The notes beneath the pieces were generated by a model. It was not told the DNA's origin. It saw only the letters and a program-made list of their open reading frames with translations, and made no database searches. Positions 15,531 through 35,178 of a DNA stretch of 64,000 bases are shown piece by piece. This stretch comes from Paenibacillus sp. FSL R10-2782 (GTDB lineage Bacteria; Bacillota; Bacilli; Paenibacillales; Paenibacillaceae). The position numbers and the translations under genes were made by a program. The first letter of the stretch is position 1, and each line of letters begins with the position of its first letter. The stretch is taken from contig NZ_CP151951.1 of assembly GCF_038592985.1 (NCBI RefSeq), forward strand, positions 1,169,001 through 1,233,000. The letters run 5' to 3'.

Positions 15531-15540
15531 GCTGAAAAAT

Positions 15541-15556
15541 GTGTGTGTAATCACAC
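15541..15556. promoter_or_regulatory. FNR/CRP-like palindrome upstream of hcp
   Basis: GTGTGTGTAATCACAC, a dyad with GTGTG and CACAC arms resembling FNR-type sites. It is about 70 nt before the hcp start, and hcp genes are commonly under anaerobic or nitrosative control. Regulator not identified. Confidence 0.4.
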
Positions 15557-15626
15557 CTATGCGCTTAGGGGTCTGTTACGCTGTGGATAACGAACAAATA
15601 CCTATCCATATTTGGAGGAAAACGAT

Positions 15627-18611: not shown

Positions 18612-19017
18612 TTTAGCAGATGAGCTGATCGCCGGGATACAACATGCCTCTGGGATTTATATTATGACTTCTTTTATTATGCAATCCGGGGTGAATCGCT
18701 GAGAAATTGACTTATCTGCTCTAGTAAGCCTAAAGTCTAGTCAAGTGGTACATATGGAACAAACCTATTTTCTTATATATTATGTATAGTTAACGTTTGA
18801 TGATTCTTACGTACCTGTCATTGATGGGGTGTTCGTGTGAATTAATTATTCAAAAAAGCTTCTGCTGAAGTTTTGGCGGGAGTTTTTTGTTTGAAAGTAT
18901 AGGATTAGAGATCGTCATATTCTTCCATTTGATGATACAATATAAACATGATTCAAAAGGACTATTTCAAATACGATGTTTCGTTTAATCAATTGTATTT
19001 CTTATATTTACGAACTT
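18612..19017. other. Gene-free stretch with a coding remnant
   Basis: No intact gene. A short open frame ending at about 18840 (TFDDSYVPVIDGVFV then TGA) looks like the C-terminus of a CBS- or ACT-type protein. A nearly identical 30-nt segment recurs at 29275-29306. The rest is AT-rich and leads into the first cassette half-site. Confidence 0.45.
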
Positions 19018-19038
19018 CGTGAATATTCCGTTATGTGA
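19018..19038 (+). repeat. attC-like right half-site opening the cassette array
   Basis: CGTGAAT-ATTCC-GTTATGTGA, the same order as the right ends of the full elements downstream (CGTGAAT, spacer, GTTA). No matching left half is seen. The preceding ~40 nt (CTTATATTTACGAACTT) recur at 35106-35120. The sequence after the GTT is complementary to the left end of the next element (GTTATGTGAAATCAGC against GCAGACATCACATAAC). Confidence 0.6.
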
Positions 19039-19072
19039 AATCAGCTTAAATAAGAGAGAAAGAGTGAGATAG

Positions 19073-19570
19073 ATGATTCAAAGCAGATATTTATTTGTAT
19101 CTCGTGCAGGCAAAGTTATAAAGATCGCCCGACCTAAAGATCATAAGCATAAATCTGTTCCTCAATTAGCAGGTGAGGAAGTACTTGAAGTGATCTTATA
19201 TTACAGGAATAAAGACAGGAAGCCGCATAAACTACTTATGGTGGAATTTGATAGATTCCATTTAGATTCGGACGGAAATTATAAACAGACAGAAGAAGAT
19301 AGAAAAAGAGCTATTCATAATTTTCTTTCTTTTGGGATGGCTGATTTGCATGAAGGAATAGAAGTAGAAGATAAGCCACTACCTATACCTGTTGCGCCGA
19401 TAATTCCGACGACTGCTGAGAAAAAATCATTATACGATTACATAAATGAGAAACTACCCAGTTTTTCAGATGATGCTCCTTATGTAGTGGAAAGTAAAAT
19501 TAAAGCTGCTAAAGAGAAATATGAAGAGTTTAAAAGCATGGCAAAGAAATCAAACAAGCTGTCTAAGTAG
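19073..19570 (+). CDS. Cassette protein of unknown function
   Basis: 165 residues, lysine-rich, soluble, no signal peptide. The N-terminal part (RYLFVSRAGKVIKIARPKDH) and a helical C-terminus (SKIKAAKEKYEEFKSMAKK) show no family I recognise. It is the sole gene between the half-site at 19018 and the element at 19590, in the sense orientation, as expected of a one-gene cassette. The ribosome site is weak (AAGAGTGAG). Confidence 0.6.
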   Translation: MIQSRYLFVSRAGKVIKIARPKDHKHKSVPQLAGEEVLEVILYYRNKDRKPHKLLMVEFDRFHLDSDGNYKQTEEDRKRAIHNFLSFGMADLHEGIEVEDKPLPIPVAPIIPTTAEKKSLYDYINEKLPSFSDDAPYVVESKIKAAKEKYEEFKSMAKKSNKLSK

Positions 19571-19589
19571 TTCGAAGAAGAAGCAGACA

Positions 19590-19694
19590 TCACATAACAT
19601 AACATAACATTCACGCTGCGGACATTCGTCCTTGGCCCGGCATGCGCCGGACACCCAGCATATGCTGGGTCGTGAATACAGAAACGTTATACGA
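19590..19694 (+). repeat. attC-like element 1
   Basis: 105 nt. Left end TCACATAAC then ATTCACG; right end CGTGAAT then GTTATACGA. The outer boxes pair with the cassette that lies before the element, the inner boxes (ATTCACG/CGTGAAT) with each other. The centre is a variable GC-rich hairpin (CCCAGCATATGCTGGG). The ATAAC unit is repeated three times at the left edge. Confidence 0.75.
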
Positions 19695-19794
19695 CAGAAT
19701 CAAGTACAAGACTAAAAAAGATAAAGCTAAAATATCTAAATTCGTTTTGTGACGAAAATCATGAGTATAAATTTGATAAGTAGGTGTGAACAAT

Positions 19795-21186
19795 ATGATG
19801 GAAGAATATAAAGATAACAAAGTAGTAGATTTAGTAGTCGAGTTAGACTTCGATCAAAATATTGATATTTTAGTTGCTGAAATTTCTGAAATTCTCAAAT
19901 ATAAGAATGCTCAAATCTCCACTAAAGAGTTAGAAAACGAAACTATTGTAAAATGCATATACAAAGATCAAATCAGAAATTTCGAGAATTTAAGTTTGTT
20001 TTTGGAATTTAAATTTACGAAAGATAATTTTAAAAGTATGAAGCTCTCTCTTGAGCACCATCAGATCAACGAAAATGATTTAGATTTGTATATTTATAAA
20101 ACTATACAAATGAAATTGCTAAACAGTGTATATAAAAAAAATTCTAGTAAATATACTGTTCGAATATACAAAAGCATCTTCAATAAAACTACCATAAAAG
20201 GAGTATATACAATAAATTGGATAAATAAGATTCAAATGTTCCCTCTTATGGTTTTTGAAAAAGATGAATCTTATTCGGAACACATTATTGTATTCGATGT
20301 GGAAGTTAAAGCAATCAATTTAGATCAAGCAAGAAGCATTGCATATAATATTATTTCGGATTTTACTGCCTTTCTTTCTCTGCTTATAGATGTTGGATTT
20401 CAAGACATTAGATCAAAATACATGAATTTTTTAATCAAAGGTAATTTAGGTCGAATACAATTGAATCGCCATCGTACAGGTACTTACGATGAGGAACTAA
20501 AGTTATACGTGAGGGATAATTTCTATGGTATCACGCCTGAAGATAATCCAGGGTATGATTATGGCCCAATTTATTTAGTTGCAGAGGAAATGAAGACGAA
20601 AGTTACTTATCAAACAAATAGTGACGCCTTTTTAGAAAGAATATTTAAAGATAGAGAAATAAAGAAAAAGAGCTCAATGAAAAACGAATATTCAGAAGGT
20701 TCATTTGCACAGATACACAATCCACATAATCCTATTAAAGTACCCAAAAAAATTAGAGATTATTTTCGTGAAATCAAGCAGCTTGAAGAAGAAAATATAA
20801 AAAAATATGAATCTTTCAGAAATGCATGTCGAATTTACCTGCTTGCTAAGAACACAGAACAATTTAACGAAACATCAGCAATATCCTATATGGTAGCGTC
20901 TGTTGAAGCACTAGGAAAATATGAAAAGATAGGTTTCTCTGAAATGTGTAAAAGATATTTAGGGGACGATATTGATTTAAAGTTTCTCGACTATCTGTAC
21001 GGGAATGTTCGATCAGGACATTTTCATTCTGGAGAATTTGCTTTTTTAGAATATGATGTTAATTTCAATAGATCTATGGATAGTTTATATACCAAAATTA
21101 TTCAAAAAAATCGTGAAGCTAAAAGTAGTTTGCGAAAGGTATTGGTAAGTTGGGTTGAAGAGAATTTAAATCTTAGAAATAATTAA
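19795..21186 (+). CDS. Cassette protein with HEPN-like C-terminus (possible ApeA-type defence protein)
   Basis: 463 residues from ATG 19795 (TAGGTG 8 nt upstream; a GTG at 19786 lies inside that site). The N-terminal ~320 residues are not recognised. The C-terminal ~130 residues are helical and include SAISYMVASVEALGKYEKIG followed by GNVRSGHFHSGEF, which fits the HEPN nuclease motif R-x4-6-H and the RxxxxHSG layout of ApeA-like proteins. HEPN proteins are commonly RNases in phage defence or abortive infection. The function is inferred from this one motif. It is the only gene in its cassette and very AT-rich. Confidence 0.6.
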   Translation: MMEEYKDNKVVDLVVELDFDQNIDILVAEISEILKYKNAQISTKELENETIVKCIYKDQIRNFENLSLFLEFKFTKDNFKSMKLSLEHHQINENDLDLYIYKTIQMKLLNSVYKKNSSKYTVRIYKSIFNKTTIKGVYTINWINKIQMFPLMVFEKDESYSEHIIVFDVEVKAINLDQARSIAYNIISDFTAFLSLLIDVGFQDIRSKYMNFLIKGNLGRIQLNRHRTGTYDEELKLYVRDNFYGITPEDNPGYDYGPIYLVAEEMKTKVTYQTNSDAFLERIFKDREIKKKSSMKNEYSEGSFAQIHNPHNPIKVPKKIRDYFREIKQLEEENIKKYESFRNACRIYLLAKNTEQFNETSAISYMVASVEALGKYEKIGFSEMCKRYLGDDIDLKFLDYLYGNVRSGHFHSGEFAFLEYDVNFNRSMDSLYTKIIQKNREAKSSLRKVLVSWVEENLNLRNN

Positions 21187-21249
21187 ATATTTTTAAATAA
21201 AGAGTCAAACAAGAAAAGAAAATTTTAGTCAGTCAGAGATGCAATTCCG

Positions 21250-21331
21250 TCGTATAACATAATATTCACGCTGAGGACATTCGTCCTGGGTCCGGCATCC
21301 GCTGGGGCGTGAATACAGGAACGTTATACGA
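21250..21331 (+). repeat. attC-like element 2
   Basis: 82 nt, the shortest complete copy. TCGTATAAC-ATAAT-ATTCACG on the left; CGTGAAT-ACAGGAAC-GTTATACGA on the right. The left outer box is complementary to the sequence at the start of the preceding cassette (GTTATACGACAGAATC). Confidence 0.8.
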
Positions 21332-21445
21332 AATTCTTGCATTGACCAAAGAACCGACAAAATATATTTAAAAATTTTAATATTGATAGAGAATGTCGGA
21401 TAAAATATAATAAAATTATATATCCATTATTTGGGGGTGCTTGAA

Positions 21446-22300
21446 GTGCCTATATACGAAGCGATCTATAGAAATGAAGAAAACGAAGAATTGGTACTTA
21501 TTAATACATTTGAATCTCATCCCGAGTTTGAAGTTGCGAGGAATAATTTATTTTGTGTGTTCGAAAACTGTCCTGCAAAGCTTGAGTACGTACCTAAAGG
21601 CAAACGCAAGGAGCATTTTAAAACTTGGCCTAAACATAATCATATTCAAGATTGTCTGGATTACTTTGAAAGAGAGAAGGTTGCTCAGGGCAATAAAAAC
21701 TCAGCGACTGCTACAATGGCTCTCACGGATAAACATATCTCAAATATCCTTAATGAAATAAAACGTAAAAGAAAGCAGAAAGAAAATGAAGGGCAATTGC
21801 ATCAGGGGAATAAAAAAACTAAGAAAAAAAGAACTAATGTAGATACATCTTTGCCCGCAACAAGTAATATTAATATTAATCCAACAACTGGTCCTGATGC
21901 TGTGCTACAGGAGGGTGAAGGTGGTTATAAAGCACCACCTGTTAGAAGGAGAAATTTAACGCTCTTAAATAATGATGATATTGGTTTTACTCGTAGTCTA
22001 GAAGATGCGACAATAGAACAGATTGAAATAGACGATGAACGGGTAGTTTTTAAAGTTTCAAATGGACAAAGACACTGTAATATTTACTTTGAAGAGTTTT
22101 TCTTTACTAATTCACCAGTAAACTTTTTGGAATTACTCAAGCAACTAAAAGAGATAGTAGATAAGAGCAACCTGAAATTTTATTTCAGTTGTGTCGGAGA
22201 AGTAGTAAAAAGAGATGATTCGGTTCATATGTTAATCAATAGGAATACTCATTTTAGAGTAGATGATCAGTATTTACCAGTATTCCTCCATACGCTCTGA
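21446..22300 (+). CDS. Cassette protein with N-terminal Cys/His (zinc-finger-like) segment
   Basis: 284 residues from GTG 21446 (GGGGGTG about 6 nt upstream). Residues ~30-70 contain Cys and His spaced like a zinc ribbon (FCVFENCPAKLEYVPKGK, then KTWPKHNHIQDCLDYFE), reminiscent of the N-terminal region of CoiA-like proteins. A Lys-rich linker and a C-terminal alpha/beta domain ending HTL follow. Family not recognised; nucleic acid binding is plausible. Only gene in its cassette. Confidence 0.6.
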   Translation: MPIYEAIYRNEENEELVLINTFESHPEFEVARNNLFCVFENCPAKLEYVPKGKRKEHFKTWPKHNHIQDCLDYFEREKVAQGNKNSATATMALTDKHISNILNEIKRKRKQKENEGQLHQGNKKTKKKRTNVDTSLPATSNININPTTGPDAVLQEGEGGYKAPPVRRRNLTLLNNDDIGFTRSLEDATIEQIEIDDERVVFKVSNGQRHCNIYFEEFFFTNSPVNFLELLKQLKEIVDKSNLKFYFSCVGEVVKRDDSVHMLINRNTHFRVDDQYLPVFLHTL

Positions 22301-22386
22301 ATTTAAGTAACTATTCCTAGATGTACTTCTATCATTAAAGTACATCTTTTTTTTATAGTTTGGACTATTCAAGGATGGCAATAACA

Positions 22387-22557
22387 TCGTATAACAAAAT
22401 ATTCACGTTGCGAGGCCATGAGGCACCTTGTGGATCGCCAGGAGTTAAGCAGCGAGGAAGCGGGATCGGGCAATTAATTCTGCGAGCCTAAGTCTCTGAC
22501 CCAGTCGCTACGTTCCTTTAAGGCTCTGGGGTTCGTGAATACAAGAACGTTATACGA
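22387..22557 (+). repeat. attC-like element 3
   Basis: 171 nt, the longest copy. Left TCGTATAAC-AAAAT-ATTCACG; right CGTGAAT-ACAAGAAC-GTTATACGA. The enlarged GC-rich centre forms several stems. The ends are conserved while the centre is unrelated to elements 1 and 2, as in attC sites. Confidence 0.75.
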
Positions 22558-22574
22558 CAGAATCAAAAACAATA

Positions 22575-22599
22575 GAAAAAGAGGGTCATATGGCCCTCT
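22575..22599 (-). terminator. Terminator of the minus-strand cassette gene
   Basis: AGAGGG / CCCTCT arms with an 8-nt loop, followed on the minus strand by TTTTTC. It overlaps the stop codon of the gene ending at 22598. Confidence 0.75.
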
Positions 22600-22885
22600 A
22601 AATACTAGAATTTTGTAATTCACTAAATAGTTGTAGAGCATCTTTGAAACCTTGTATGTAGATACTTCTTTCTAGGATGGATTGGAGAGAAATTTGGGCG
22701 TCTTCGTAAAGAAAAACCGTATGTTGAAGTTGATCGGGCAAAGCATCACGAAGCGTTTTAAAATATTGATCTGTCTCCGAAGAAAGCTGAGTGTACTCCT
22801 TATGACACTCCAGAAGCTCAGTATATAGTAATTCTAAACGTATTCTTATAAGCGGATCTGTTAATGATTCTAATGTATTAATCAT
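22598..22885 (-). CDS. Unknown small helical protein, partner of a divergent HTH gene
   Basis: 95 residues, acidic and helical (SLTDPLIRIRLELLYTELLE, KEYTQLSSETDQYFKTLRDA). An AGGAGGAAT site precedes the ATG. It has a clear paralogue at 28494-28772, and both are divergent from a 67- to 74-residue Xre-type regulator. No toxin motif is visible. A regulator/effector or toxin-antitoxin-like pair is inferred from the arrangement. Confidence 0.6.
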   Translation of the reverse strand: MINTLESLTDPLIRIRLELLYTELLECHKEYTQLSSETDQYFKTLRDALPDQLQHTVFLYEDAQISLQSILERSIYIQGFKDALQLFSELQNSSI

Positions 22886-22904
22886 ATGTTATTCCTCCTC
22901 AAGT

Positions 22905-22974
22905 TAACTTTATAGAGTTATTATATAACCTTATAAAGTTAATTGAAAGATGAATATTTGACTTTATAGAGTTA
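22905..22974. promoter_or_regulatory. Three 16-bp operators between the divergent genes
   Basis: TAACTTTATAGAGTTA (22905), TAACCTTATAAAGTTA (22926) and TGACTTTATAGAGTTA (22959) are near-identical dyads. They are placed to control both divergent promoters, probably as targets of the HTH protein encoded at 23039. Confidence 0.75.
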
Positions 22975-23038
22975 AAACTTCGCTTTTCGTTGATGATTGC
23001 TAATATGGAAGATAAGATAGAATTATGGAGGGGAAAAG

Positions 23039-23263
23039 ATGAACGTAATCAAGTGCAATATACGAGAACTCATGGCAGAACATCGAATAGATGATATAAC
23101 AGAATTGATGGCGAAATCGGGCTTAAGTCGGAATTCAATCAACAAGTTGTATAGGGGAACGAATATAGAAACAACAAAGCTGGAAACCTTATTCAAGCTA
23201 TGCGACACATTTAACTGCAAATTATCAGATTTAATTGAGTATGTACCCAAAGAAAACCAATAG
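23039..23263 (+). CDS. Small Cro/C1-type HTH regulator
   Basis: 74 residues that are almost entirely one helix-turn-helix (MAEHRIDDITELMAKSGLSRNSINKLYRG, LETLFKLCDTFNCKLSDLIEYV). GAGGGG lies 6 nt before the ATG. Divergent from the 95-residue gene, with three palindromic operators between them. The same pairing occurs at 28.5-29.1 kb. Confidence 0.8.
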   Translation: MNVIKCNIRELMAEHRIDDITELMAKSGLSRNSINKLYRGTNIETTKLETLFKLCDTFNCKLSDLIEYVPKENQ

Positions 23264-23290
23264 TGAAGGCAGATTCGAGAAGTGATTCCA

Positions 23291-23408
23291 TCGTATAACA
23301 TAATATTCAAGCTTCGGCTCCTTTGGAGCCTTGGTCTGCGGATGGATTTCGGGGAGGAATTTCAGCAGACAACCCTTCGGGGTTCATGAATACAGGAACG
23401 TTATGTGA
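23291..23408 (+). repeat. attC-like element 4
   Basis: 118 nt. Left TCGTATAAC-ATAAT-ATTCAAG; right CATGAAT-ACAGGAAC-GTTATGTGA. The centre has stems GGCTCC/GGAGCC, GTCTGC/GCAGAC and AACCC/GGGTT, shared with elements 5, 6 and 8. The left flank GATTCCATCGTATAAC pairs with the start of the preceding cassette. Confidence 0.8.
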
Positions 23409-23483
23409 AATTCTATTGGATACCATTAAACCAAATAAATGATATAATACAACCAACCCAAAACGTCTGCAGGGGGATTAATC

Positions 23484-23609
23484 GTGAAGTGGCAAGGAGT
23501 ACAACAAATCTTTCCGAATCAACTTGTGAAGTTCGAAATTTTTTGTTCTGAAGGGATAAATCATAAAGAATTTATAGATGATTTTTCTGAAAGTAGACAT
23601 GTGAAATGA
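23484..23609 (+). pseudogene. Probable truncated N-terminus of a cassette gene
   Basis: A 41-codon open frame from GTG 23484 with AGGGGGA upstream: it begins MKWQGVQQIFPNQLVKFEIF and ends ESRHVK. It is the first coding segment of its cassette, while the last coding segment of the same cassette, 3.2 kb later at 26786, is a SEC-C zinc motif without a start codon. The two may be halves of one gene split by the DNA in between. This is inference. Confidence 0.4.
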
Positions 23610-23994
23610 GATGCATCTGTGCAAGCACTAGATATCAGGGGCTACGCCCCTGATATGCGGACTTTGAAGATTAAATTAAGTGCTTGCTGTAACGCAATAC
23701 ATTCGCCCCCCCGCTGCCTAAATCTGATGGAAAAAGACGTGCGACGTCCAGCTTTTAACAGCCATCCATTCTCTCGTTCAGTGGCCTGAAGGTTTGTGTT
23801 CCCCTGTTTGCTTCTCCTGATGAAAATTGCTGTTTCTGTCCTAGTTACCGATTTTTATATAACTCTCTTGCAGTTAACAATTAATCGCCGCACTATATTC
23901 CTCCGCGTAACACATCATGCTGGATGACAAGCTTGGTGTAAGCAAACAGCTTGTTCTTCCTTAATACATAAAAGTCATCTTGTCGCTATTTTCG
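23610..23994. other. Gene-free stretch at the left end of a probable insertion
   Basis: Contains a hairpin (TATCAGGGGC / GCCCCTGATA at 23633-23655) and outer arms CAAGCACT / AGTGCTTG. The remainder has short open frames only, with GC content higher than the cassettes around it. No gene recognised. Confidence 0.4.
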
Positions 23995-24309
23995 TCATAA
24001 TGACAAGCCCGAAGTTGCATTCGGAACAAACTCCTCGCGTTTGCTCATGACCTCGATCATCATGTTGGCCCCAAGCCTGAACCCATGAATAAATGCGGCT
24101 TCGACGTGCATTCCGTCAGACATGTCACACAAGTCGAAAAACTCCTCAAGCTCACGAAATTCTTCTTCGCCAAGTCTGTTTCTCCATTGCTCCGTCATAG
24201 CTACGATTTGTCGGCCTAACTGTCGATATTCAGGATGAGACGGTACAATTGTCTCATCGGGATGAAGCTGTCCGTGGTAAAGAGCTTCCAGAATAGATTT
24301 CATGTTCAT
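23995..24309 (-). CDS. DUF6809-like protein
   Basis: 104 residues, helical and acidic. It has the pattern of small proteins common on Firmicutes mobile elements: start MNMKSILEALYHGQLHPDE, centre YRQLGRQIVAMTEQWRNRL, end FIHGFRLGANMMIEVM. Function unknown. Oriented against the cassette array, next to a ribbon-helix-helix gene on the same strand, so probably imported with a plasmid or conjugative element fragment. Confidence 0.6.
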   Translation of the reverse strand: MNMKSILEALYHGQLHPDETIVPSHPEYRQLGRQIVAMTEQWRNRLGEEEFRELEEFFDLCDMSDGMHVEAAFIHGFRLGANMMIEVMSKREEFVPNATSGLSL

Positions 24310-24441
24310 CCTCCCATAAATGTAATCGCATCGCTTGAATGAGATTCCTGCACATGGTAGGATATTTATGCAGTCTGCTTATTAAGCGATTGCGCTTAGG
24401 AAGTAGCGATGTTCTTTTCGGGACTCACGCTGCTTCCTTCT

Positions 24442-24621
24442 TTATTTTTGGAGATCGTCATACACCTTCTCAATCCCTTTACGCACGATATCCGAACGGG
24501 TCGTACTCAACTTCTCGGTGCAAGCATCAAGCTTACTCAAGATAGTCTGATCGACACGTATCTTAATCGTTTCGCTTTTGGGATTGTCAGATGGAGGACG
24601 CCCCATCTTTTTGGACGACAT
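24442..24621 (-). CDS. Ribbon-helix-helix (CopG-like) repressor
   Basis: 59 residues, too short for common cut-offs. After a basic start (MSSKKMGRPPSDNPK), the strand SETIKIRVDQTILSKL and two helices (ACTEKLSTTRSDIVRKGIEK) make a ribbon-helix-helix fold typical of plasmid copy-control and antitoxin proteins. GGGGTGA lies 6 nt before the ATG. A 43-nt perfect palindrome is placed 13 nt upstream of the start, a likely operator. No toxin gene is adjacent; the DUF6809-like gene is downstream. Confidence 0.8.
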   Translation of the reverse strand: MSSKKMGRPPSDNPKSETIKIRVDQTILSKLDACTEKLSTTRSDIVRKGIEKVYDDLQK

Positions 24622-24633
24622 CGCTTCACCCCA

Positions 24634-24676
24634 CTTTTCGTGTCCACAATAATCATATTATTGTGGACACGAAAAG
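24634..24676. promoter_or_regulatory. Long perfect palindrome, operator of the RHH gene
   Basis: Two 20-nt arms in perfect inverted repeat around a 3-nt centre: the left arm starts CTTTTCGTGTCC and the right arm ends GGACACGAAAAG. It overlaps the expected promoter or leader of the ribbon-helix-helix gene. Confidence 0.7.
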
Positions 24677-25207
24677 TCAATCCATATGTTGAACTACTCA
24701 TTCCTTTTCCCTCGGCAGGTTAGGCATCTTTCACACGAAACTGCTGTCTCGTGTTGAAGCAAGCACTGAATTTGGGTATCCAAATACGCTTGTTAGACGA
24801 CAGGCCCCTAATACCCATGTTTCTGTTCTTTGACGAAATATGTGGCATGTTCCATTCCATGAGTACCTGTCTTTTTATATATCTTTTTAGGCATCACAAG
24901 ACCAGAAACATTGATATGACCAATGTATCTCCTATTGAATGTATATTGGATGATATACCTTCACCAATTGGCGTCAAAAGTTTTTAAGATTTCAGGGTAC
25001 AATAATCCTCCTTGTGGTAATGAATTTAATAATAAATTACATTTATGAATAACATTCTCAAATGATTAAATGAATCACGGATGCGTATTACGCAGACTAT
25101 CACCAATAGATCATATGACCCACCGCGATATGAGACTCCCACACTATAGTATAACAATATATGGTATGATAATACAGAGAACGTCACCTGGAAAGGGAGT
25201 TGTTTGT
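24677..25207. other. Gene-free stretch
   Basis: About 530 nt between divergent units. Short open frames on both strands look non-coding. It must hold the promoter for the membrane protein/Shedu-like pair. Confidence 0.4.
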
Positions 25208-25891
25208 TTGAATAATTGGATATTGTTTATTGTCTTCATAATTATTTTCTGTATTGGATTAGTTCGAAGTACCTTCAATTATTTTCATGTGTTAAAGAAG
25301 AAAAATTTCTCAATTGATTTCCTTAATAACTTCAGAGAGTTTGGCTCTCAACTTGTTCAGCAAGAACTCTTTGATTCCGAAAAATACCAATGGTTAATGA
25401 TGAATTCATCCAAAATGCAAACAATGATGGGGAGTTACGGAGTAGCCTCTTATAAGCCCCCTTTCGCTAATTATATGTACAACAATTATCAACTGGTCGT
25501 AAATGGGATAAGAGAAATAAAAGATAACTTTCAAAGAGCGGCGGGCAGCTACGGACTAAGCTTTGAAAAACGTTGGGTTATTGAATCAATTAGTATGGTT
25601 GATGACGCACTTCTTACATATGTAGGTGCAATTAGTGATGCTTTAGATGAAGTAAAAAAGGATTCGAAAAATCCACTTATTTGGTTGCGCGAAGGTGTTC
25701 GGTTTATCGTAACGAGCCCAATTTCACTGATGTATTGGTCTGGATTAATCAAGTATAGGACGTACAATGTAATATCAAATAACTTCTTTGTAAAGTTACT
25801 TTCATTTCTTATTGGCATCATTGGTTTCGTTAGTTCAATCGTTACAATAGTCACGGGCTATACGCCATTTAAATCTCTTATTGGGTTTTAA
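25208..25891 (+). CDS. Membrane protein, probable partner of the Shedu-like gene
   Basis: 227 residues from TTG 25208 (AAAGGGAG 8 nt upstream). One N-terminal membrane segment (NNWILFIVFIIIFCIGLV) and a C-terminal hydrophobic hairpin (LLSFLIGIIGFVSSIVTIV) enclose a soluble helical middle (about 30-190). No family recognised. It is followed after 65 nt by a Shedu-type nuclease gene on the same strand, so a two-gene defence unit with a membrane effector or anchor is suggested. Confidence 0.6.
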   Translation: MNNWILFIVFIIIFCIGLVRSTFNYFHVLKKKNFSIDFLNNFREFGSQLVQQELFDSEKYQWLMMNSSKMQTMMGSYGVASYKPPFANYMYNNYQLVVNGIREIKDNFQRAAGSYGLSFEKRWVIESISMVDDALLTYVGAISDALDEVKKDSKNPLIWLREGVRFIVTSPISLMYWSGLIKYRTYNVISNNFFVKLLSFLIGIIGFVSSIVTIVTGYTPFKSLIGF

Positions 25892-25956
25892 ATCAAGAAC
25901 GATTAATATTTGGGAATTACGGATAAGTGCGTGTGTTTACTTATAGGAGGATGTGT

Positions 25957-26754
25957 ATGTCACTATATGAACGAAACTATACAACAATTACTGATGAAGA
26001 AAGATTAATATGGGAAGATATGAAGGAACAAGAGAAAACTGGTCTAGGAAACCTACGGAAGCGAAATCTTTTCTTGAAATATCCGAAAGCAATACGTCAT
26101 TATTTAAGCTTATTTCCGAATCACTATTTAGATGTTGTGGAGTTACGAGACGAAGTTAGACTACAAAATATAACTGAACAGTACCTACTTGAAATAAACA
26201 ACCCAAAAGCAAACGAATTATCCATTATGAAATTTATTAAGCAAAGTAGAACTTATTTTATTATTGCTTCTTTGTTTAAAGATTATAATTTTGGACACCA
26301 CGAAGCATATGTAATTCCAGAGTTTATGTTTGGAAATACTTATCGTGTAGACTATCTATTGATTGGAAAAAATTCGGGTGGTTATGAATTTATACTCGTT
26401 GAACTTGAACATCCTTATAAGGATATTACAACGAAATGTGGAGATTTAGGCAGTGCATTTCGTAAAGGGATAAAACAGATTGACGATTGGAAAAGGTATC
26501 TTATTCCCAATTTCATGACACTTGAAGAAACATTTTTAAAGTATAAAAACCCCAAAATAGATCTTCCCCGAGAATTTATTAAACCAGATATAACCCGTAT
26601 TCATTACGTTGTTGTCGCCGGGAGACGTAGCCATTTTAACGATAACACTTATTGGATTAAAAGAAATAAAAGAGAAAATGAGAAGATTAATCTACTTCAT
26701 TATGACAATCTATACGACTATGCTGTGGACACTATAGGTAAGTCAACATATTAG
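25957..26754 (+). CDS. Shedu-like anti-phage nuclease (DUF4263)
   Basis: 265 residues from ATG 25957 (TAGGAGG 6 nt upstream). The central region has a PD-(D/E)xK-type nuclease core in the form seen in Sdu[18 protein letters not shown], then FILVELEHP, then [18 protein letters not shown]. The D...ExE spacing and the following Gln/Trp helix fit DUF4263. SduA proteins protect against phage by nicking DNA. The N-terminus is shorter than in many Shedu proteins and of unknown role. The second gene of a likely operon with the upstream membrane protein. Confidence 0.75.
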
Positions 26755-26785
26755 TCTCAAAACTTTTCTAAAAGGAGGGTGTGAA

Positions 26786-26899
26786 GGTGAAGATATCGGT
26801 AGGAATGATCCATGTTTCTACGGTAGTGGTAAGAAGTATAAAAAATGTTGCTTAGGAATAAATGAGATTAATTTTGAAAAAACAAATGATGTTGTTTGA
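26786..26899 (+). pseudogene. SEC-C zinc-binding motif fragment
   Basis: An open frame without a start codon encodes [22 protein letters not shown] and a short tail. This is the SEC-C metal-binding motif found at the C-terminus of SecA and many other proteins; the usual third Cys (PCxCGSG) is Tyr here. It sits just before attC-like element 5, where the 3' end of a cassette gene is expected. Probably the severed C-terminus of the gene starting at 23484. Confidence 0.55.
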
Positions 26900-26921
26900 G
26901 TTATTCAGGGTAGATTAGAAC

Positions 26922-27044
26922 TTCACTTAACATAATATTCAGGCTGCGGCTCCGTCGGAGCCTGGGTCTGCGGGATGGATTTCAGAGAGGCATTTCAGCA
27001 GACAACCCCTGACGGGGTTCGTGAATACAGAAACGTTAGCTGAA
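26922..27044 (+). repeat. attC-like element 5
   Basis: 123 nt. Left TTCACTTAAC-ATAAT-ATTCAGG; right CGTGAAT-ACAGAAAC-GTTAGCTGAA. The left outer arm GAACTTCACTTAAC pairs with GTTATGTGAAATTC at the start of the cassette beginning at 23400, not with this element's own right box. About 80% like element 4. Confidence 0.8.
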
Positions 27045-27131
27045 ATCGTCGAAAAACTTTTAAATAGCTTAAGCAGTTATTGTTCGATAATTCGTTGTGA
27101 AAATTAATAAAATCATACAAGGAGTGTAGAT

Positions 27132-27524
27132 ATGAAACTGGGAGCAACGTTATACATTAAGAATACAGTTGATGCCGTGGAGTTTTACAAGGATGCTTTT
27201 GGAATGAATTTGGGATATAATGAGAAATTTCCAGATGGAACGTTCATACATGCGGAGTTACTTAAAGATGGACATGAAGTATTTGCCGTAAGTGAGTCCC
27301 CAAATGATGCATTTGTTAATGTTATGTTGTCATCATCATTAAAAGAGTCGCGACCGACTATGAGTTATAGTATTAATTTTGACAACGAAGAAGAAGTAAG
27401 GAAAGCATATTCTATTTTAGCAGAAGGAGGAAAGGTGCTATTACCTATAGGGTCTCTTCCATGGAGTTCTTGTTGTGCAGAGGTAGTAGATAAATATGGT
27501 GTGTATTGGTATATAACTGTGTAA
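27132..27524 (+). CDS. VOC/glyoxalase-family protein (PhnB-like)
   Basis: 130 residues with the beta-alpha-beta-beta-beta repeats of the vicinal oxygen chelate fold: LYIKNTVDAVEFYKDAFGMN at the start and VDKYGVYWYITV at the end, with a Glu/His pattern of PhnB-like proteins. Possible metal-dependent resistance or detoxification enzyme; substrate unknown. AAGGAGTG lies 7-8 nt before the ATG. The only gene between elements 5 and 6. Confidence 0.8.
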   Translation: MKLGATLYIKNTVDAVEFYKDAFGMNLGYNEKFPDGTFIHAELLKDGHEVFAVSESPNDAFVNVMLSSSLKESRPTMSYSINFDNEEEVRKAYSILAEGGKVLLPIGSLPWSSCCAEVVDKYGVYWYITV

Positions 27525-27632
27525 ATATATCATTCCATTTTTGAGAATAATCTAAAGTTTGGTTTATATTGTTATTGTAAGTTGTTAGTAATGTTCTAAT
27601 AGATTCGATAGTTTAATCGAAGAAGCGACGAC

Positions 27633-27801
27633 TTTAGCTAACACCGTACTCACGCTACGGACCCTAACGGGTCCTTGGTCTGCAGAGGTATTTCGAGGGA
27701 GCGGAAACAGCAGACAACCCTGCTCTGGCTAAGTCCGTCGGACCCGGGGCTAACGCCCCTTAAGCCAGTGAGGGTTCGTGAATACAATAACGTTAGGTGA
27801 A
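27633..27801 (+). repeat. attC-like element 6
   Basis: 169 nt. Left TTTAGCTAAC then ACTCACG; right CGTGAAT-ACAATAAC-GTTAGGTGAA. The left arm with its flank (CGACGACTTTAGCTAAC) is complementary at 15 of 17 positions to the first 17 nt of the preceding cassette (GTTAGCTGAAATCGTCG at 27035). The centre shares the GTCTGC/GCAGAC stem and has an extra GGGGC/GCCCC stem. Confidence 0.85.
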
Positions 27802-27893
27802 ATATCGGCAACCCCATAAAAACATTAAAGGCGAATGTTAAGTCCCATCATGCTTTGGTGTATAATGAAAACAAAGAAGTGCAGGAGGTATGT

Positions 27894-28004
27894 GTGATTG
27901 ATTTTATCGAATTTCTAAAGAACCGAAGTAATCAGCAAATGGAGTCACTAATGGACGATATTATAAATGAAAACGCTGAAGCACTTAGGGAATTAGCCAA
28001 ATGA
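27894..28004 (+). CDS. Possible short antitoxin upstream of Doc
   Basis: 36 residues from GTG 27894 (AGGAGG 5 nt upstream): starts MIDFIEFLKNRSNQQ and ends EALRELAK. It overlaps the Doc reading frame by 4 nt (ATGA), as toxin-antitoxin pairs often do. It resembles only the C-terminal, toxin-neutralising part of Phd-like antitoxins. Small size lowers confidence. Confidence 0.5.
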   Translation: MIDFIEFLKNRSNQQMESLMDDIINENAEALRELAK

Positions 28005-28371
28005 AGAATATCAGTTTAGAACAAATTATTCAATTCCATACTAAGATTGTAAAGGCAACAGGTGGTTCGGTTGGGATCATGGAATGATTGAAAGTGCATT
28101 ACGAAAAGCAGAAGCAACCTTCGATGGACAGGAGCTTTACGAAGGTACGATAAGGAAAATATCTGTAATTGGATACGCGTTAATAAAGAATCATGGATTT
28201 ATTGACGGGAATAAACGTATAGGTGTAGCGACAATTTTATTTTTATTACGTTTAAATGGATTGTCAATAAAATATGAACAGAAAGAACTAATTGAATTAG
28301 GATTAAAAACGGCAGAAGGAACAATTAAAGAAGAGAATATTGAACAATGGATAGAAGAACATCGAGTATAG
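28001..28371 (+). pseudogene. Doc/Fic-type toxin, frameshifted
   Basis: The frame from ATG 28001 encodes the Doc N-terminus (MKNISLEQIIQFHTKIVKA, then GGSVGI) and stops at 28087. The rest of the family continues in another frame from about 28080: HGMIESALRKAEATF, then the Fic motif HGFIDGNKRIG and a complete C-terminus to EEHRV. A small deletion where 'GIRDxG' is expected breaks the frame. Doc toxins phosphorylate EF-Tu. As read, the toxin should be inactive; a sequencing error would have to be excluded. Confidence 0.75.
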
Positions 28372-28435
28372 AAAGTGCTTGATGTTCTTTGCTTAATAGA
28401 GGATATTTGTAGGCAACTCAAAGAAGGCCGATACA

Positions 28436-28493
28436 TCATCTAACATAATATTCACGCATCGGGCTATGCCCTTGGTTTGGCCGAGGAATTTCG
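28436..28493 (+). repeat. attC-like element 7, right end missing
   Basis: Left end intact: TCATCTAAC-ATAAT-ATTCACG. The flank GCCGATACATCATCTAAC is complementary to GTTAGGTGAAATATCGGC at the start of the Doc cassette. The right half is lost; the element runs directly into the 3' end of the next minus-strand gene. Confidence 0.7.
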
Positions 28494-28772
28494 TTATGTA
28501 AGATGGAGAGCATCTTTAAAACCTTGCAAATAGATTTCACGCTATAAAATAGCTTGAACAGAAAGGTCTGCATCATCAAAAAGGAATAGAGTCTTTTGTA
28601 TATCCTCTGGTAGTAGTTCATGTAACTGCTTGAAGAAAAGATTCCGTTCGGATGAGAACTGGTTGTAGCTGGAGTTGTTTTTGATAAGCTCGCCATATAA
28701 AGATTCAATTCGATTACGTATCAGTGAATCGAGTAAGACTTCTAAAGAATTATGCATATTTGAACACCACAT
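28494..28772 (-). pseudogene. Paralogue of the 22598 gene with an internal stop
   Basis: The reading frame matches the 95-residue protein at 22598-22885 along its length (SLIRNRIESLYGELIKNN, LPEDIQKTLFLFDDADLSVQ), but a TAG at 28542-28544 replaces the Glu of ILERSIYIQGFKDAL (here IL-stop-REIYLQGFKDAL). The 3' end is fused to the truncated attC-like element 7. Divergent from the HTH gene at 28926; the spacer has repeats TGAATAAAAGTTTA / TGAATAAAATTTTA that may be operators. Confidence 0.7.
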
Positions 28773-28925
28773 TGATTTAATTTTGTGAATAAAAGTTTAA
28801 CTAATTGAATAAAATTTTATCATAACGAACATATAAGTCAATACATGTTGAAGATGTTTTTGATAAAGAAAATATACTTTCATATAATTAAAGAAAATTA
28901 ACTTCATGTGTGAAAGGAATAACAG

Positions 28926-29129
28926 ATGATTAGTTACAAACCTTTTCAAAAATTATTGATCGACAGGGAAATTAAGAAGCAGGACTTACTTAAAATGACA
29001 GGGATTTCGTCTGCTACAATGGCGAAGCTCAATACGAGTGAATATGTGTCATTAGAGGTAATTGATAAATTATGTACGGCTTTAGGTTGTCAACCAGGAG
29101 ATTTATTGGAACACATAGCAGAGCAATGA
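28926..29129 (+). CDS. Small Cro/C1-type HTH regulator (second copy of the pair)
   Basis: 67 residues, a single helix-turn-helix (LLIDREIKKQDLLKMTGISSATMAKLNTSEYVSLEVIDKLC, ending ALGCQPGDLLEHI). GGAAT lies about 7 nt before the ATG. Same arrangement as the 23039 regulator and its divergent partner, but the partner here is broken. Confidence 0.75.
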   Translation: MISYKPFQKLLIDREIKKQDLLKMTGISSATMAKLNTSEYVSLEVIDKLCTALGCQPGDLLEHIAEQ

Positions 29130-29177
29130 CAGATCAAGATCAAGGAAGAATTTTGGTTGATCGAAGCAGTGATTCCG

Positions 29178-29228
29178 TCGTGTAACATAAATATTCAAGC
29201 TGTGGCTCCGTCGGAGCCTGGGTCTGCT
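29178..29228 (+). repeat. attC-like element 8, truncated
   Basis: TCGTGTAAC-ATAAAT-ATTCAAG and the stem GGCTCCGTCGGAGCC as in elements 4 and 5; it breaks off after GGTCTGC. The right half is absent. Confidence 0.65.
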
Positions 29229-29681
29229 ATATAGTCTTTTTATCTAATAGGATTAGCTGAAGTTTATTTGACCCACACGTACCTGTCATTGATGGGATGT
29301 TCGTGTGAAACAATTCTAGTAGAAGTTACTGAATTTAACTTTCTTATCTGGAAAGTAATAGGATATTTAATTAGGTAAAGAGTCTGAGCGATAAAGAAGA
29401 AATCCTTATCGTTCAGACTCTTTTTTCTTTTTATACCCATAGATGTAAGACTAAAGAAAACTTCCGATTGAGCACTATAGTAAATTTGCAAAATGTCTAT
29501 CCTGCATAGCAGTACACCCTAAACACCACAGAAAGGGAGTTGCCTTGGCAATGATAGCAAATATGTTGTCTATATTTCCAAGCGATGCTGATATCAGAAA
29601 TTTGTCCTACATAGAAAACGAGTATAGAAGAGCAACCTTTAAACACTTTCAAGTGTTAGGTAATAAGCTAGCAGGAGCCTT
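29229..29681. other. Remnant region at the right end of the array
   Basis: Holds a second copy of the 30-nt coding remnant seen at 18811 (29277-29306, HVPVIDGMFV then TGA), a terminator, and a short plus-strand open frame from 29545 that runs into the antisense of the DUF418 gene. No intact gene. Confidence 0.45.
29377..29428. terminator. Bidirectional terminator
   Basis: Long stem AAGAGTCTGAGCGATAA / TTATCGTTCAGACTCTT, with one mismatch, an 11-nt loop and A/T tracts on both sides. Confidence 0.8.
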
Positions 29682-30551
29682 TTATCGTTTTATTGCATGC
29701 TTTGTTCCATATGTCATCAAACGCCAAACCTTTTCTAAGGGTCCCATGGAAAAGAACTTGAACGAGATGGTGCTAAAAATGATTTGAATAATATAGATCA
29801 GAACTGCGATGTAGAGAATATCTTTTGGTGAAACGACTTCGAAACCTATAATTGAAATGGTTGCCGTCCCTATAATGCTTTGTGCTACATAATTTGTAAA
29901 TGCCATTTGACCAACCCGTGATATGGGTGTCAGGAATTTCACAATGTGTTTATTTTCTAATAGTAGAAATAATGTTGTTAAGTAAAACAAAGTGGTTGGA
30001 AGTGATCCTAAGCCCGTAACTGAATTTACATTGCTGCTCCCACTTTGAGAAGCATTCGAAATCCATAGTGAGAAACCAACGAATAAAAGAAATGATACCA
30101 TTTGAATCCATCTAATTGGTTTAGATAATTCTTTTGTGTGTGTCAGCCAACCTGACTTCGCGGTTAAAAAACCAGCTAAAAACATAATAAAAATTTGTAA
30201 AGCGTCATTAGAAAAAATATCAAGGATAGAGGATATTTCCCCTAGAGAGGGTAAAAATATTTTTACCACCAAGGAAATGATGTAAATGGATGTCATACCA
30301 ATAAGCCACTTTTTAAGTGTAGAAACCGTTGTGTGATAAAAAGGGATTAGAAACAATCCGATAATCGCGTATACGGGTAGAATGGTTCCCCAAAAGATAA
30401 ACACATGAATGATTCCCAGCAGCAAGAGGATTAGTAAACGTCTAGCCATACGCCATCTTGGTTTATCTCCCCGGCTTTCGGCTCTTGAGGAAATGTATAG
30501 ACCTACTCCAAATAGGAATGAAAAAATAGATTCTTTCGCAAAAAATTCATT
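29682..30551 (-). pseudogene. DUF418/YeiB-type membrane protein, N-terminally truncated
   Basis: About 256 residues from an ATG at 30449, but homologous-looking sequence continues upstream to about 30551 (FFAKESIFSFLFGVGLYIS) before an in-frame stop. YeiB-family proteins begin some 60-100 residues earlier, so the 5' end is lost. Eight or so membrane helices remain; the C-terminal DUF418 region (VGQMAFTNYVAQSII, FSMGPLEKVWRLMTYG) is complete. It is divergent from the mur operon, whose promoter occupies the missing 5' region. Confidence 0.65.
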
Positions 30552-30559
30552 TCAGAATT

Positions 30560-30608
30560 TTGACATTTTGTTTTAAGTAAAACTAAATAATGTTGAAAAA
30601 ATATTTCA
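30560..30608 (+). promoter_or_regulatory. Promoter and probable MurR operator of the mur operon
   Basis: A -35 TTGACA (30560), an 18-nt spacer and -10 TAAATA, followed by the dyad TGAAA-AAATA-TTTCA (30594-30608). The dyad lies just downstream of the -10, a position suited to a repressor. MurR is encoded at the end of the operon. Confidence 0.55.
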
Positions 30609-30654
30609 GTAATGTTATCATTCGATTAGAAAGCGATTTCATATACGGAAAAGG

Positions 30655-31557
30655 ATGATGATAAAAATCATGTTAGAGCATTTGACAACAGAGACTCGCA
30701 ATAAGAAGACAATGAACTTGGATGAATTAACACCTCTTGAACTTTTGGAAGTGATGAATGAAGAAGACCAAAAGGTCGCACAGGCGGTTAAGCAAGAAAT
30801 TCCGCAAATTGCCAAAGCTGTTGAAGTAATAACAATGGTGCTCAAACAAGGTGGACGCTTAATTTACATGGGGGCTGGAACAAGTGGACGTATCGGCTTG
30901 CTAGATGCGGTTGAATGTCCACCAACCTTTGGAACAGCACCTGAAGAGGTAGTTGGACTAATTGCTGGAGGAGAGAGAGCGTTTATTAAAGCGGTCGAAG
31001 GTGCAGAGGACAATGAACAATTAGGGGCGCAAGATTTACAAGATATTAAGCTAACAGCCAAAGATGTTGTTGTAGGAATTGCCGCTAGCGGACGCACGCC
31101 TTATGTTATCGGTGGATTAGAATATGCCAATTCTATTGGAGCGCCTACCGTAGCCGTGAGTTGCAACAAAGATTCAGCGATTGGTAAAGTTGCCAAGATT
31201 GCGATTGAAGTCGTGAACGGACCGGAAGTGTTAACTGGCTCAACACGTTTAAAAGCTGGGAGCTCTCAAAAATTAATTTGCAATATGCTTTCCACAGCTT
31301 CGATGATTGGCACGGGGAAAGTATATGGGAATTTAATGGTAGATGTACAGTTAACTAATGAAAAACTTGTAGAACGTGCTAAACGTATTGTTATGGATGC
31401 GACAGATTGTGGTGCTGAAACAGCAGAAGATTATTTGAAAAAGGCAGATCATAAACCGAAAATTGCAATTGTGATGCTTCTTGCCGGGCTTTCGAAAGAA
31501 GAAGCTGTACAACGTTTGGAGGAATCACAAGGGTTTGTACGTCAAGCGATAAAATAA
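30655..31557 (+). CDS. murQ: N-acetylmuramic acid 6-phosphate etherase
   Basis: 300 residues. The SIS-type sugar phosphate fold carries GAGTSGRIG and LLDAVECPPTFG, the MurQ signatures; the enzyme cleaves the lactyl ether of MurNAc-6-P to GlcNAc-6-P and D-lactate in the cytoplasm. The family normally begins close to MLEHLTTETRN, so the true start could be ATG 30670, though AAAAGG favours 30655/30658. First gene of murQ-murP-mupG-murR, with 26-nt spacing to murP. Confidence 0.92.
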   Translation: MMIKIMLEHLTTETRNKKTMNLDELTPLELLEVMNEEDQKVAQAVKQEIPQIAKAVEVITMVLKQGGRLIYMGAGTSGRIGLLDAVECPPTFGTAPEEVVGLIAGGERAFIKAVEGAEDNEQLGAQDLQDIKLTAKDVVVGIAASGRTPYVIGGLEYANSIGAPTVAVSCNKDSAIGKVAKIAIEVVNGPEVLTGSTRLKAGSSQKLICNMLSTASMIGTGKVYGNLMVDVQLTNEKLVERAKRIVMDATDCGAETAEDYLKKADHKPKIAIVMLLAGLSKEEAVQRLEESQGFVRQAIK

Positions 31558-31583
31558 TGCGAAAGTAAGAAGGGGGCATAAAC

Positions 31584-33002: not shown

Positions 33003-33029
33003 CTGATCAGAAGTATTGAGGTGATTCGA

Positions 33030-34082: not shown

Positions 34083-34143
34083 TGATTACTCCCGTCTATT
34101 TTGTTATAATAAGTAAAATAGATTAAGTAGAGGAGATAAAGAC

Positions 34144-34995: not shown

Positions 34996-35007
34996 TGTTT
35001 TGATTAG

Positions 35008-35044
35008 AAGCTTCTTCCAGAGTATGGGGGAAGCTTTTTTTTTG
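35008..35044 (+). terminator. Terminator of the mur operon
   Basis: AAGCTTCTTCC / GGGGGAAGCTT arms around AGAGTAT, then about nine T. Confidence 0.75.
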
Positions 35045-35120
35045 TAAAGTGCTTTAAGGAGATCGAACTATTCTTCCATTTAATAGTATAATCAATGGTA
35101 TTCCTTATATTTGCGAACTT

Positions 35121-35140
35121 CGTGAATATTACGTTATATG
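35121..35140 (+). repeat. attC-like right half-site, right edge
   Basis: CGTGAAT-ATTAC-GTTATATG, preceded by TTCCTTATATTTGCGAACTT, which matches the sequence before the half-site at 19018. It marks a second boundary 16 kb away and is followed by a broken gene. Confidence 0.55.
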
Positions 35141-35178
35141 TACTTACTACAACAGACATTTTGAATGGAGGAGATTTT

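Follow-up and report, generated by a model that had tools for sequence, protein, structure and literature searches.

An integron-like system of gene cassettes and attC-like sites in Paenibacillus, with a tyrosine recombinase that lacks the IntI insertion

The cassette array and its sites

In the chromosome of Paenibacillus sp. FSL R10-2782, small genes alternate with palindromic sites that resemble the attC sites of integrons, and we describe here this array together with a second one on the same chromosome (array B), which adjoins a tyrosine recombinase gene. The first array lies in the window, by which we mean the whole stretch of 64 kb that was analysed (1,169,001–1,233,000 of a one-contig 5.6-Mb genome). 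Positions are those of the window unless otherwise stated, and its features are as follows.

19011–19034, plus strand: attI-like site CGAACTTCGTGAATATTCCGTTAT, head of the array; no mismatch to the attI-like motif; the first cassette begins at its GTTA (19030)
19030–19685, plus: cassette 1, 165-aa protein with no Pfam match; ends complementary
19595–19689, plus: attC-like site A1; TAAC at 19595, repeated at 19600; G of GTTA at 19686
19686–21322, plus: cassette 2, 466-aa protein of no confident family
21255–21326, plus: attC-like site A2; TAAC at 21255; G of GTTA at 21323
21323–22548, plus: cassette 3, 289-aa protein of no confident family
22392–22552, plus: attC-like site A3; TAAC at 22392; G of GTTA at 22549
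22549–23399: cassette 4, DUF6809 protein (22598–22885, minus) and HTH_26 protein (23039–23263, plus)
23296–23403, plus: attC-like site A4; TAAC at 23296; G of GTTA at 23400
23400–27034, plus: cassette 5, composite, 3.6 kb, with Shedu SduA (25927–26754) and a 273-aa protein among its products
26928–27038, plus: attC-like site A5; TAAC at 26928; G of GTTA at 27035
27035–27791, plus: cassette 6, VOC/glyoxalase-like protein (27132–27524)
27639–27795, plus: attC-like site A6; TAAC at 27639; G of GTTA at 27792
27792–28440, plus: cassette 7, Fic/Doc-fold open reading frame (ORF; 28084–28371) and a small upstream ORF
28441–28490, plus: attC-like site A7, left part only; 32.4 bits
28490–29182: last cassette fragment, DUF6809-like ORF (28542–28772, minus) and helix-turn-helix (HTH) ORF (28926–29129, plus)
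29183–29226, plus: attC-like site A8, truncated; right end of the array
35114–35137, plus: second attI-like site; no mismatches; no complete attC-like site found downstream in the window

The original prediction, which was made from the letters of the window, had listed eight palindromic elements with left spacers of 5–6 nt and right spacers of 8 nt. All eight were recovered within a few bases of the positions then quoted, six complete and two truncated, with spacers of 5 and 8 nt. Across the whole data set the left spacer was 5 nt in 258 of 265 measured sites and the right one 8 nt in 246 of 258, as seen by a site finder that admits only 4–7 nt on the left and 7–9 nt on the right and fixes GTT and TAAC. 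The right end GTGAATACANNAACGTTA was matched six times in the 64 kb with at most three mismatches, compared with a mean of 0.39 in shuffled sequence, and none of 100 shuffles reached six; the left end was matched nine times, compared with a shuffled mean of 0.91, and again no shuffle of 100 was as high. Of the left-end matches, six belong to array elements and two to the attI-like sites in reverse orientation; the remaining match, at 6211, is unrelated. The sites have the attC layout R''-L''-variable-L'-R' with unpaired spacers, and they are foldable. The earlier reading of the array was supported but too modest; it had missed the attI-like start, the complementarity of cassette ends, and the second array with its integrase.

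Array B and the attI-like sites

A pattern search of the complete genome revealed nine further sites, on the minus strand at 3,737,671–3,755,094 of the same chromosome, which constitute array B. Reversed patterns, used as a control in the same search, gave 1 and 3 matches, compared with 7 and 9 for the true patterns; a lone plus-strand right-end match at 3,855,549 was left out of the count because no left end lies beside it. Directly upstream of array B, and pointing the same way, is a gene for a 379-aa tyrosine recombinase (genome positions 3,756,706–3,757,845; locus L034, 15707–16846, minus). About 80 bases past its stop codon lies GGAAGTTCGTAAATAAGACGTTAT, directly followed by cassette sequence. 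A tyrosine recombinase gene adjacent to an array is therefore present at array B, as well as at the named loci of relatives described below, and absent at the window array.

Within three mismatches, the attI-like motif was found at only three places in this genome, namely 19011–19034, 35114–35137 and the head of array B. Among 63 loci, the motif TTCGTNAATANNNNGTTA was present 3' of the integrase gene with at most one mismatch in 22 (shuffled mean, 0.02; control stretch, 0) and with at most three mismatches in 50 (shuffled, 6.4; control stretch of the same loci, 3). The sequence after GTTA at the attI-like sites varies among genomes. Judged by sequence only, the attI-like site beside the integrase would be the insertion point of the first cassette. 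In locus L084, after position 11146, attI-like boxes recur every ~36 bp ahead of the final GTTA site and resemble accessory integrase-binding repeats.

The window (64 kb) contains no tyrosine recombinase of PF00589, and the nearest PF00589 matches in the genome lie more than 100 kb from it; the window array is therefore a second platform without an integrase of its own, similar to a cluster of attC sites lacking an integrase (CALIN), with its own attI-like head. The sequence upstream of the second attI-like site in the window (35114–35137) resembles that upstream of the array head, and a coding stretch downstream (35160–35620) looks degenerate by eye; this site is possibly an emptied platform.

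Cassettes as units of exchange

A cassette begins after GTTA and ends before TAAC, and these two ends make up a single site only while the cassette is circular. Recombination of cassettes as circles at GTTA therefore predicts that the two ends are complementary to each other, rather than to the other half of the site that holds them. This prediction was tested on 245 cassettes from this genome and its relatives, in which two loci occur twice under different names (L076 overlaps L079, and L078 overlaps L134). The two ends of the same cassette pair at 9.90 of 14 positions, compared with 5.67 of 14 for the two flanks of one site and 5.35 of 14 for random pairs (permutation standard deviation, 0.095), and the highest mean in 2000 permutations was 5.73 of 14. 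By position, the paired fraction is 0.83–0.94 at positions 5–9, 0.40 and 0.03 at positions 10–11, and 0.75–0.83 at positions 12–16, where positions 8 and 9 are uninformative on cassettes since their bases are conserved and pair highly across one site too (0.94 and 0.77). Each cassette thus has paired arms GTTANNNGA, then a conserved mismatch, and then 5–6 more pairs that are cassette-specific. A model-free test (GTTR/YAAC with inner flanks paired at 10–11 of 11 positions) found five cassettes in the window array, where single-base shuffles averaged 0.10, and a further 10 kb of the window yielded none.

Comparison of 259 cassettes, from which loci L079, L080 and L134 were dropped, yielded 53 pairs of relatives (at least 80% coverage and at least 75% identity). 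Where both neighbours were known, none of 38 pairs shared the upstream neighbour and none of 40 the downstream one. On the left side of related cassettes, identity is about background up to the conserved core just before GTTA and high from GTTA on; on the right side it falls directly after GTTA, except at the conserved positions 7–10, so that breakpoints are resolved to about the stretch ACGTTA. In the window the Fic/Doc cassette comes after A6, in array B it comes after another site, and identity between the two copies begins at GTTA. In genome G026, a site resembling A2 is immediately followed by a cassette related to the DUF6809 one; the latter stands one cassette further on in the window, after A3. 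Relatives of cassette 4 occur in array B (86% identity), G026 (89%), G061 (90%) and locus L081 (96%), none with a shared neighbour, and the last cassette fragment has 86–97% matches in G063, G026 and G025. Relatives also occur across species, for example at 90% between G060 and Paenibacillus sp. Root52 (L108), whose integrase on the same contig (row L058) is just 53% identical to that of the present genome.

The original prediction had suggested comparing strains for single cassettes, and had named two observations that would speak against it: copies scattered with no genes between them, and movement of the elements with gene content fixed, the behaviour of miniature inverted-repeat transposable elements (MITEs). 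Neither was seen; gene content varies cassette by cassette and the sites stay at the junctions, which is the reverse of what MITEs do. These comparisons of sequence show that the cassette is the unit of exchange and that cassettes are mobile, with breakpoints at G/TT. The median cassette body is 748 bp, and in 198 of the 228 cassettes that have an ORF of at least 80 aa (259 examined), the longest one is on the cassette strand.

The fold of the attC-like site

The 15 sites of this genome fit a structure of five helices (R stem, L stem and three hairpins), which was set by eye from single folds and then tested, with 92.9% of cells paired and a covariation of 0.228 as compared with 0.099 in shuffles (none of 500 as high). 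In the best 150 of 341 matches to the site model R1, 94.8% of cells were paired and covariation was 0.306 as compared with 0.109, in an alignment that was fitted to the structure and of which slid versions were 30–40% paired. An RNAalifold run on a MAFFT alignment gave four pairs only and was set aside. Compensatory changes are frequent in the three central hairpins, which we interpret as a sign that, as in attC, the fold of a single strand is under selection. Comparison across sites thus shows a conserved, foldable element.

Variations from known attC sites were also observed. The R' and R'' boxes of attC have the consensus GTTRRRY and RYYYAAC, which occur in only 77 and 74, respectively, of 327 sites; the usual start of a site is GTTANNNGA(A/C)A. 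The L stem carries a 1×1 mismatch in 44 of 149 sites. Known attC sites owe their strand choice to the extrahelical G of L'', and spacer shape influences their efficiency (PMC2727003); in the sites described here, the asymmetry of the 5- and 8-nt spacers would be the obvious candidate for strand choice.

The integrase protein

The closest named integrases are from Paenibacillus sp. RC254 (98% identity), Paenibacillus polymyxa (96%) and relatives, which confirms the genus given in the original prediction and makes the P. polymyxa group likely. The best curated family is the XerA-like NF040815, with 215.3 bits against a cut-off of 220, whereas the integron integrase family TIGR02249 gave 202.6 bits, under its cut-off of 265, with the best stretch ending at profile position 175 of 315. 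Some relatives bear the NCBI name 'site-specific tyrosine recombinase/integron integrase', which is the name of the NF040815 family. The best relative in the PDB is IntI4, aligned in two pieces: the match stops at residue 182 and resumes at 240, leaving residues 183–239 unmatched. The spacing from KDR to HxLRH is 59 residues in 10 of 11 Paenibacillaceae rows (61 in L110), compared with 100 in 8 of 8 IntI rows, a narrow sample consisting of Limnochorda and near relatives. The additional domain around patch III that is specific to IntI was thus not found in this integrase. In the tree, the IntI proteins form one clade (100/100) and the Paenibacillaceae proteins another (100/98); three recombinases of this genome and L158 are on long branches, and long-branch joins around IntI may be false.

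Four relatives from Treponema metagenome-assembled genomes (L150, L151, L156 and L157) are on the IntI side of the tree (98/94, with long branches). Three of them have the short spacing of 59 residues (that of the fourth was not measurable), and no R1 match at E ≤ 1 was obtained for any of the four. These relatives may be informative about how IntI arose. Among plasmid matches (H7–H12, H15–H16, H21 and H23–H40), many are rhizobial or bradyrhizobial, with tyrosine recombinases 36–41% identical to the integrase core.

The structural model of the whole integrase is fair (mean pLDDT, 70.1; pTM, 0.44), and matches with a root-mean-square deviation above 15 Å were used for ranking only. The extra N-terminal domain of 82 residues, predicted alone, folds confidently (pLDDT, 91.4) and has weak structural matches to UvsW, XPB and SMARCAL1-HARP. 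UvsW, XPB and SMARCAL1 are proteins of branched or forked DNA. At the sequence level, weak HARP (PF07443) matches were found in 10 of 21 full proteins (best E, 0.003) and in 8 of 22 isolated N-terminal domains (best, 7.6e-4), with none in the protein of this genome in either set and a precomputed one on P0063; a weak Cmr2_N match is commoner than HARP (16 of 21 proteins; best, 4.2e-4). The weak likeness to HARP, UvsW and XPB therefore suggests, without proving it, that the predicted N-terminal domain is a different answer to the problem of holding folded DNA.

Linkage and distribution

Eighty named loci were found through the integrase, and within them the site model R1 gave 341 matches; among the 300 matches listed, two are on the minus strand, both in L087. 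With our own finder, 56 of the 80 loci were examined, after setting aside 14 clostridial or metagenome loci among L124–L144 and all of L149–L158 (of which L152 is Paenibacillus). These 56 loci hold 243 sites downstream of the integrase gene in its orientation, none upstream and one inverted. At least one downstream site is present in 47 of them, and the other nine have about 900 bp of contig or less downstream. Comparison of these loci shows a genetic linkage of integrase and array, and the earlier label 'integron-like' was borne out, as the sites stand beside a dedicated tyrosine recombinase in the named loci. LexA-like boxes before the integrase gene were perfect only in L099 and partial in L083 and L114, among this genome and 45 loci, and SOS control therefore lacks support as a general feature.

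A covariance model built from the copies, as suggested with the original prediction, detected sites in at least 74 of 75 genomes of the genus (E ≤ 0.001). Because at most 41, 10 and 7 R1 candidates were scored per genome for the genus, family and phylum, respectively, these counts are lower bounds: R1 was found in at least 211 of 295 family genomes (E ≤ 1e-4), covering 17 of 19 genera, and in at least 11 of 398 phylum genomes, of which four belong to the genus and the other seven have one or two matches each (E of 1.9e-9 to 7.4e-5). The present genome has 15 R1 matches at E ≤ 0.001, which is the number of sites from which R1 was built. A relative of the integrase was present at E ≤ 1e-40 in 51 of 75 genus genomes, several as fragments, and at E ≤ 1e-50 in 104 of 295 family genomes from 14 of 19 genera, with six candidates scored in each.

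Among clostridial relatives, pairs of cassette ends were found downstream of the integrase in Frackibacter (2), Natronincola (2), Alkaliphilus (1) and two Fusibacter (5 and 1). Acididesulfobacillus has 14, mostly from an inverted duplication, with about three that are cassette-like; in its locus L126, a cassette-bearing stretch occurs twice in opposite orientations within ~3.3 kb (12877–16140). Natroniella (L132) has one pair, no more than its best shuffle, and the model-free test detected no cassette ends in Halonatronum (L135), though its integrase is a relative. Three upstream control stretches had no such pairs.

The locus across relatives

The left flank is common to the window genome, G063 (same species), G060, G026, G025 and G019. 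The attI-like motif of the window is present without mismatch in G063 and G060 and has diverged in G019 (three mismatches); by eye, the attI-like site of G026 is more diverged. The sequence after GTTAT is different in each of the window, G063, G026 and G019. In G026, G025 and G019, the truncated last site A8 (window 29226) is joined directly to the sequence found at window 35623, and window 29227–35622 is therefore absent at that place in these genomes. By eye, this 6.4-kb block between the array end and the flank contains a membrane-protein ORF, genes resembling MurNAc-6-P (N-acetylmuramic acid 6-phosphate) etherase, phosphotransferase system and MupG genes, and an RpiR-type regulator; the second attI-like site also lies in it.

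In G027 and G028 there is no array, and the points corresponding to window 18.6 kb and 35.76 kb lie about 100 and 200 bases apart. No site was found in the stretches of 9–11.5 kb examined in G007, G062 and G061; the gap between the flanks is 2.9 kb in G007 and 4.2 kb in G062, and the G061 stretch ends short of the right flank. In G063, the right flank was not found within the 35 kb examined.

A proposed mechanism of gene capture and its alternatives

We propose, with a probability of about 0.9, that the system works like an integron, i.e., that it carries out integron-type gene capture, where recombination itself is inferred. Cassettes of one or two genes, each ending in an attC-like site, would be cut out as circles and inserted anew, in both cases at the GTTA of an attC-like or attI-like site. 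The catalyst would be the tyrosine recombinase encoded at 3.757 Mb beside the main array, which would act in trans on the window array; the recombining substrate would be one folded strand, and the N-terminal domain may stand in for the missing IntI insertion by helping the enzyme to hold branched or folded DNA. On the features tested, the system falls outside the canonical IntI integrons, and the bare term 'integron' in that sense would be wrong: its integrase lacks the IntI-specific domain, and its sites lack both the extrahelical base and, for the most part, the GTTRRRY core. We think it probable that the system represents a second integron lineage independent of IntI, with a Bacillota recombinase that has a HARP-like domain and no IntI insertion, a different site grammar, cassettes with paired arms and cloverleaf-like sites, found in Paenibacillaceae and several Clostridia. 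IntI would then have arisen from this lineage, as its sister, or the two would have been invented in parallel.

Several observations weigh against the proposed integron-type capture. The integrase lacks the IntI insertion, a domain described as necessary for integron recombination (PMC9668308) and as essential for integron function, though not fully conserved in an integron-like subgroup (PMC8138268). The sites have no extrahelical base, as the L-box columns 12–19 and 258–265 are contiguous in the 150 best sites of the model-fitted alignment. Thirteen of the 63 loci have no attI-like motif within three mismatches downstream of the integrase. In G063 (20 contigs, 94% complete), arrays are present and no match to the integrase was found at E ≤ 1e-40, and family genomes with sites outnumber those with an integrase (211 versus 104 of 295, the latter with six candidates scored); many arrays may therefore be relict or served from elsewhere.

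The likeliest of the alternatives is an integron-like exchange by ordinary double-strand tyrosine recombination, in which the palindromes are dimer-binding sites and never fold as single strands. The left arm of each site, reversed (CGTGAATATTATGTTA), nearly equals the attI-like core (CGTGAATATTACGTTA), so the arm could be a duplex core site, and the lack of an extrahelical base is also in its favour; we nevertheless regard it as unlikely, since recognition of a duplex needs neither compensatory changes in three hairpins nor the asymmetry of 5- and 8-nt spacers, and every cassette keeps its own paired arms. The spread of a canonical IntI chromosomal integron into Paenibacillus from Gram-negative bacteria would explain the same layout of integrase, attI and attC-bounded cassettes, as well as IntI4 being the best PDB relative, but is very improbable given the score of the integrase under the IntI cut-off, its 59-residue rather than 100-residue spacing, the separate IntI clade and the scarcity of GTTRRRY; moreover, IntI exceeded the cut-off in only two of 398 Bacillota genomes, one of which is Limnochorda pilosa.

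Movement of cassettes by RecA-dependent recombination between repeated sites, with the recombinase as a bystander, is highly improbable. Conserved site cores could align, but the stretch common to unrelated sites is about 18 nt, which is short for RecA; such recombination would not produce complementary cassette ends, and the recombinase adjoins the array in the named loci (which were found through the recombinase). Dispersed palindromic elements of the MITE or repetitive extragenic palindromic type, inserted between genes, would account for similar palindromes repeated in intergenic positions. That origin is hardly credible here, as genes change while sites stay, the ends that co-vary are those of one cassette and not of one palindrome, and 243 of 244 sites in the named loci lie downstream of the integrase in one orientation.

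Comparison with known systems and significance

Like the sedentary chromosomal integrons of the Vibrio type (with IntI), the Paenibacillus system has an integrase, an attI-like site, and ordered small cassettes mostly in one orientation, with attC sites of the R''-L''-L'-R' layout and breakpoints at GTT. It differs in an integrase that carries an additional N-terminal domain, is without the IntI insertion and is directed as the cassettes are; the sites lack the GTTRRRY core and the extrahelical base of the L box and have 5- and 8-nt spacers, a branched centre of three hairpins, and a 9-nt arm GTTANNNGA followed by a conserved mismatch and 5–6 cassette-specific pairs. The integrase gene of the Treponema denticola reverse integron is also directed as its cassettes (PMC4909258). 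Limnochorda pilosa is likewise a member of Bacillota with an integron integrase; unlike that of Paenibacillus, this protein (L159, P0121) exceeds the IntI cut-off, has the 100-residue spacing and counts as a true IntI. The window array resembles a CALIN in having sites and cassettes with no integrase nearby, but keeps an attI-like head, and an integrase is encoded elsewhere in the genome. In comparison with the XerA-like proteins of NF040815, the best curated family, the Paenibacillus integrase scores below the cut-off and has the N-terminal domain and a cassette array; that domain is weakly like the N-terminal DNA-recognition domains of HARP (SMARCAL1), XPB and UvsW.

The IntegronFinder 2.0 study reported that of L. 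pilosa as the one complete integron in Firmicutes, together with a few CALIN from different genera, and called the extreme rarity of integrons in this phylum an intriguing gap that suggests host incompatibility (PMC9024848); a 2021 review includes Firmicutes among the phyla with integrons detected (PMC8618304). Some of those Firmicutes CALIN could be pieces of the system described here. Among the open-access matches listed, no title or abstract deals with Paenibacillaceae integrons; subscription papers and preprints lay outside this search, and a prior description is possible. In the P. vortex genome paper, the word 'integron' occurs in a reference title only. Arrays are present in most sampled genomes of a spore-former family, and they have probably been overlooked because search tools look for IntI and IntI-type attC. 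If the recombinase is active, the system would contradict the rule that integron recombination requires the IntI insertion, offer a natural comparison for the evolution of folded-DNA recombination, and constitute a large cassette reservoir (defence, toxin-antitoxin-like and unknown genes) with relatives in several species.

Cassette cargo and minor observations

A dispersed repeat of ~39 bp lies on both sides of the window array (18809–18847 and 29277–29315), with a partial match at G000 2716215–2716260. These direct repeats were considered as insertion ends and dropped because part of the repeat recurs elsewhere in this genome and in G063. An Rfam search of the array gave no family beyond chance, with two mir-3202 matches (E of 0.15 and 0.65) on an inverted repeat outside the array.

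The Shedu SduA protein of cassette 5 was identified at 3.5e-110, and the other cargo of the window comprises the Fic/Doc-fold protein, the DUF6809/HTH pair, the VOC protein and unknowns; the first cassette of array B encodes a TIR/SIR2-type protein. Cassette 5 (23400–27034) is unusually long, and by eye its start resembles a short cassette of array B, with that reading frame stopping early and several unrelated genes preceding the next site. The two copies of the Fic/Doc cassette in this genome, one in each array (27894–28371 in the window; 11856–12340 in L035), share by eye an early stop upstream of the Fic ORF and look equally shortened.

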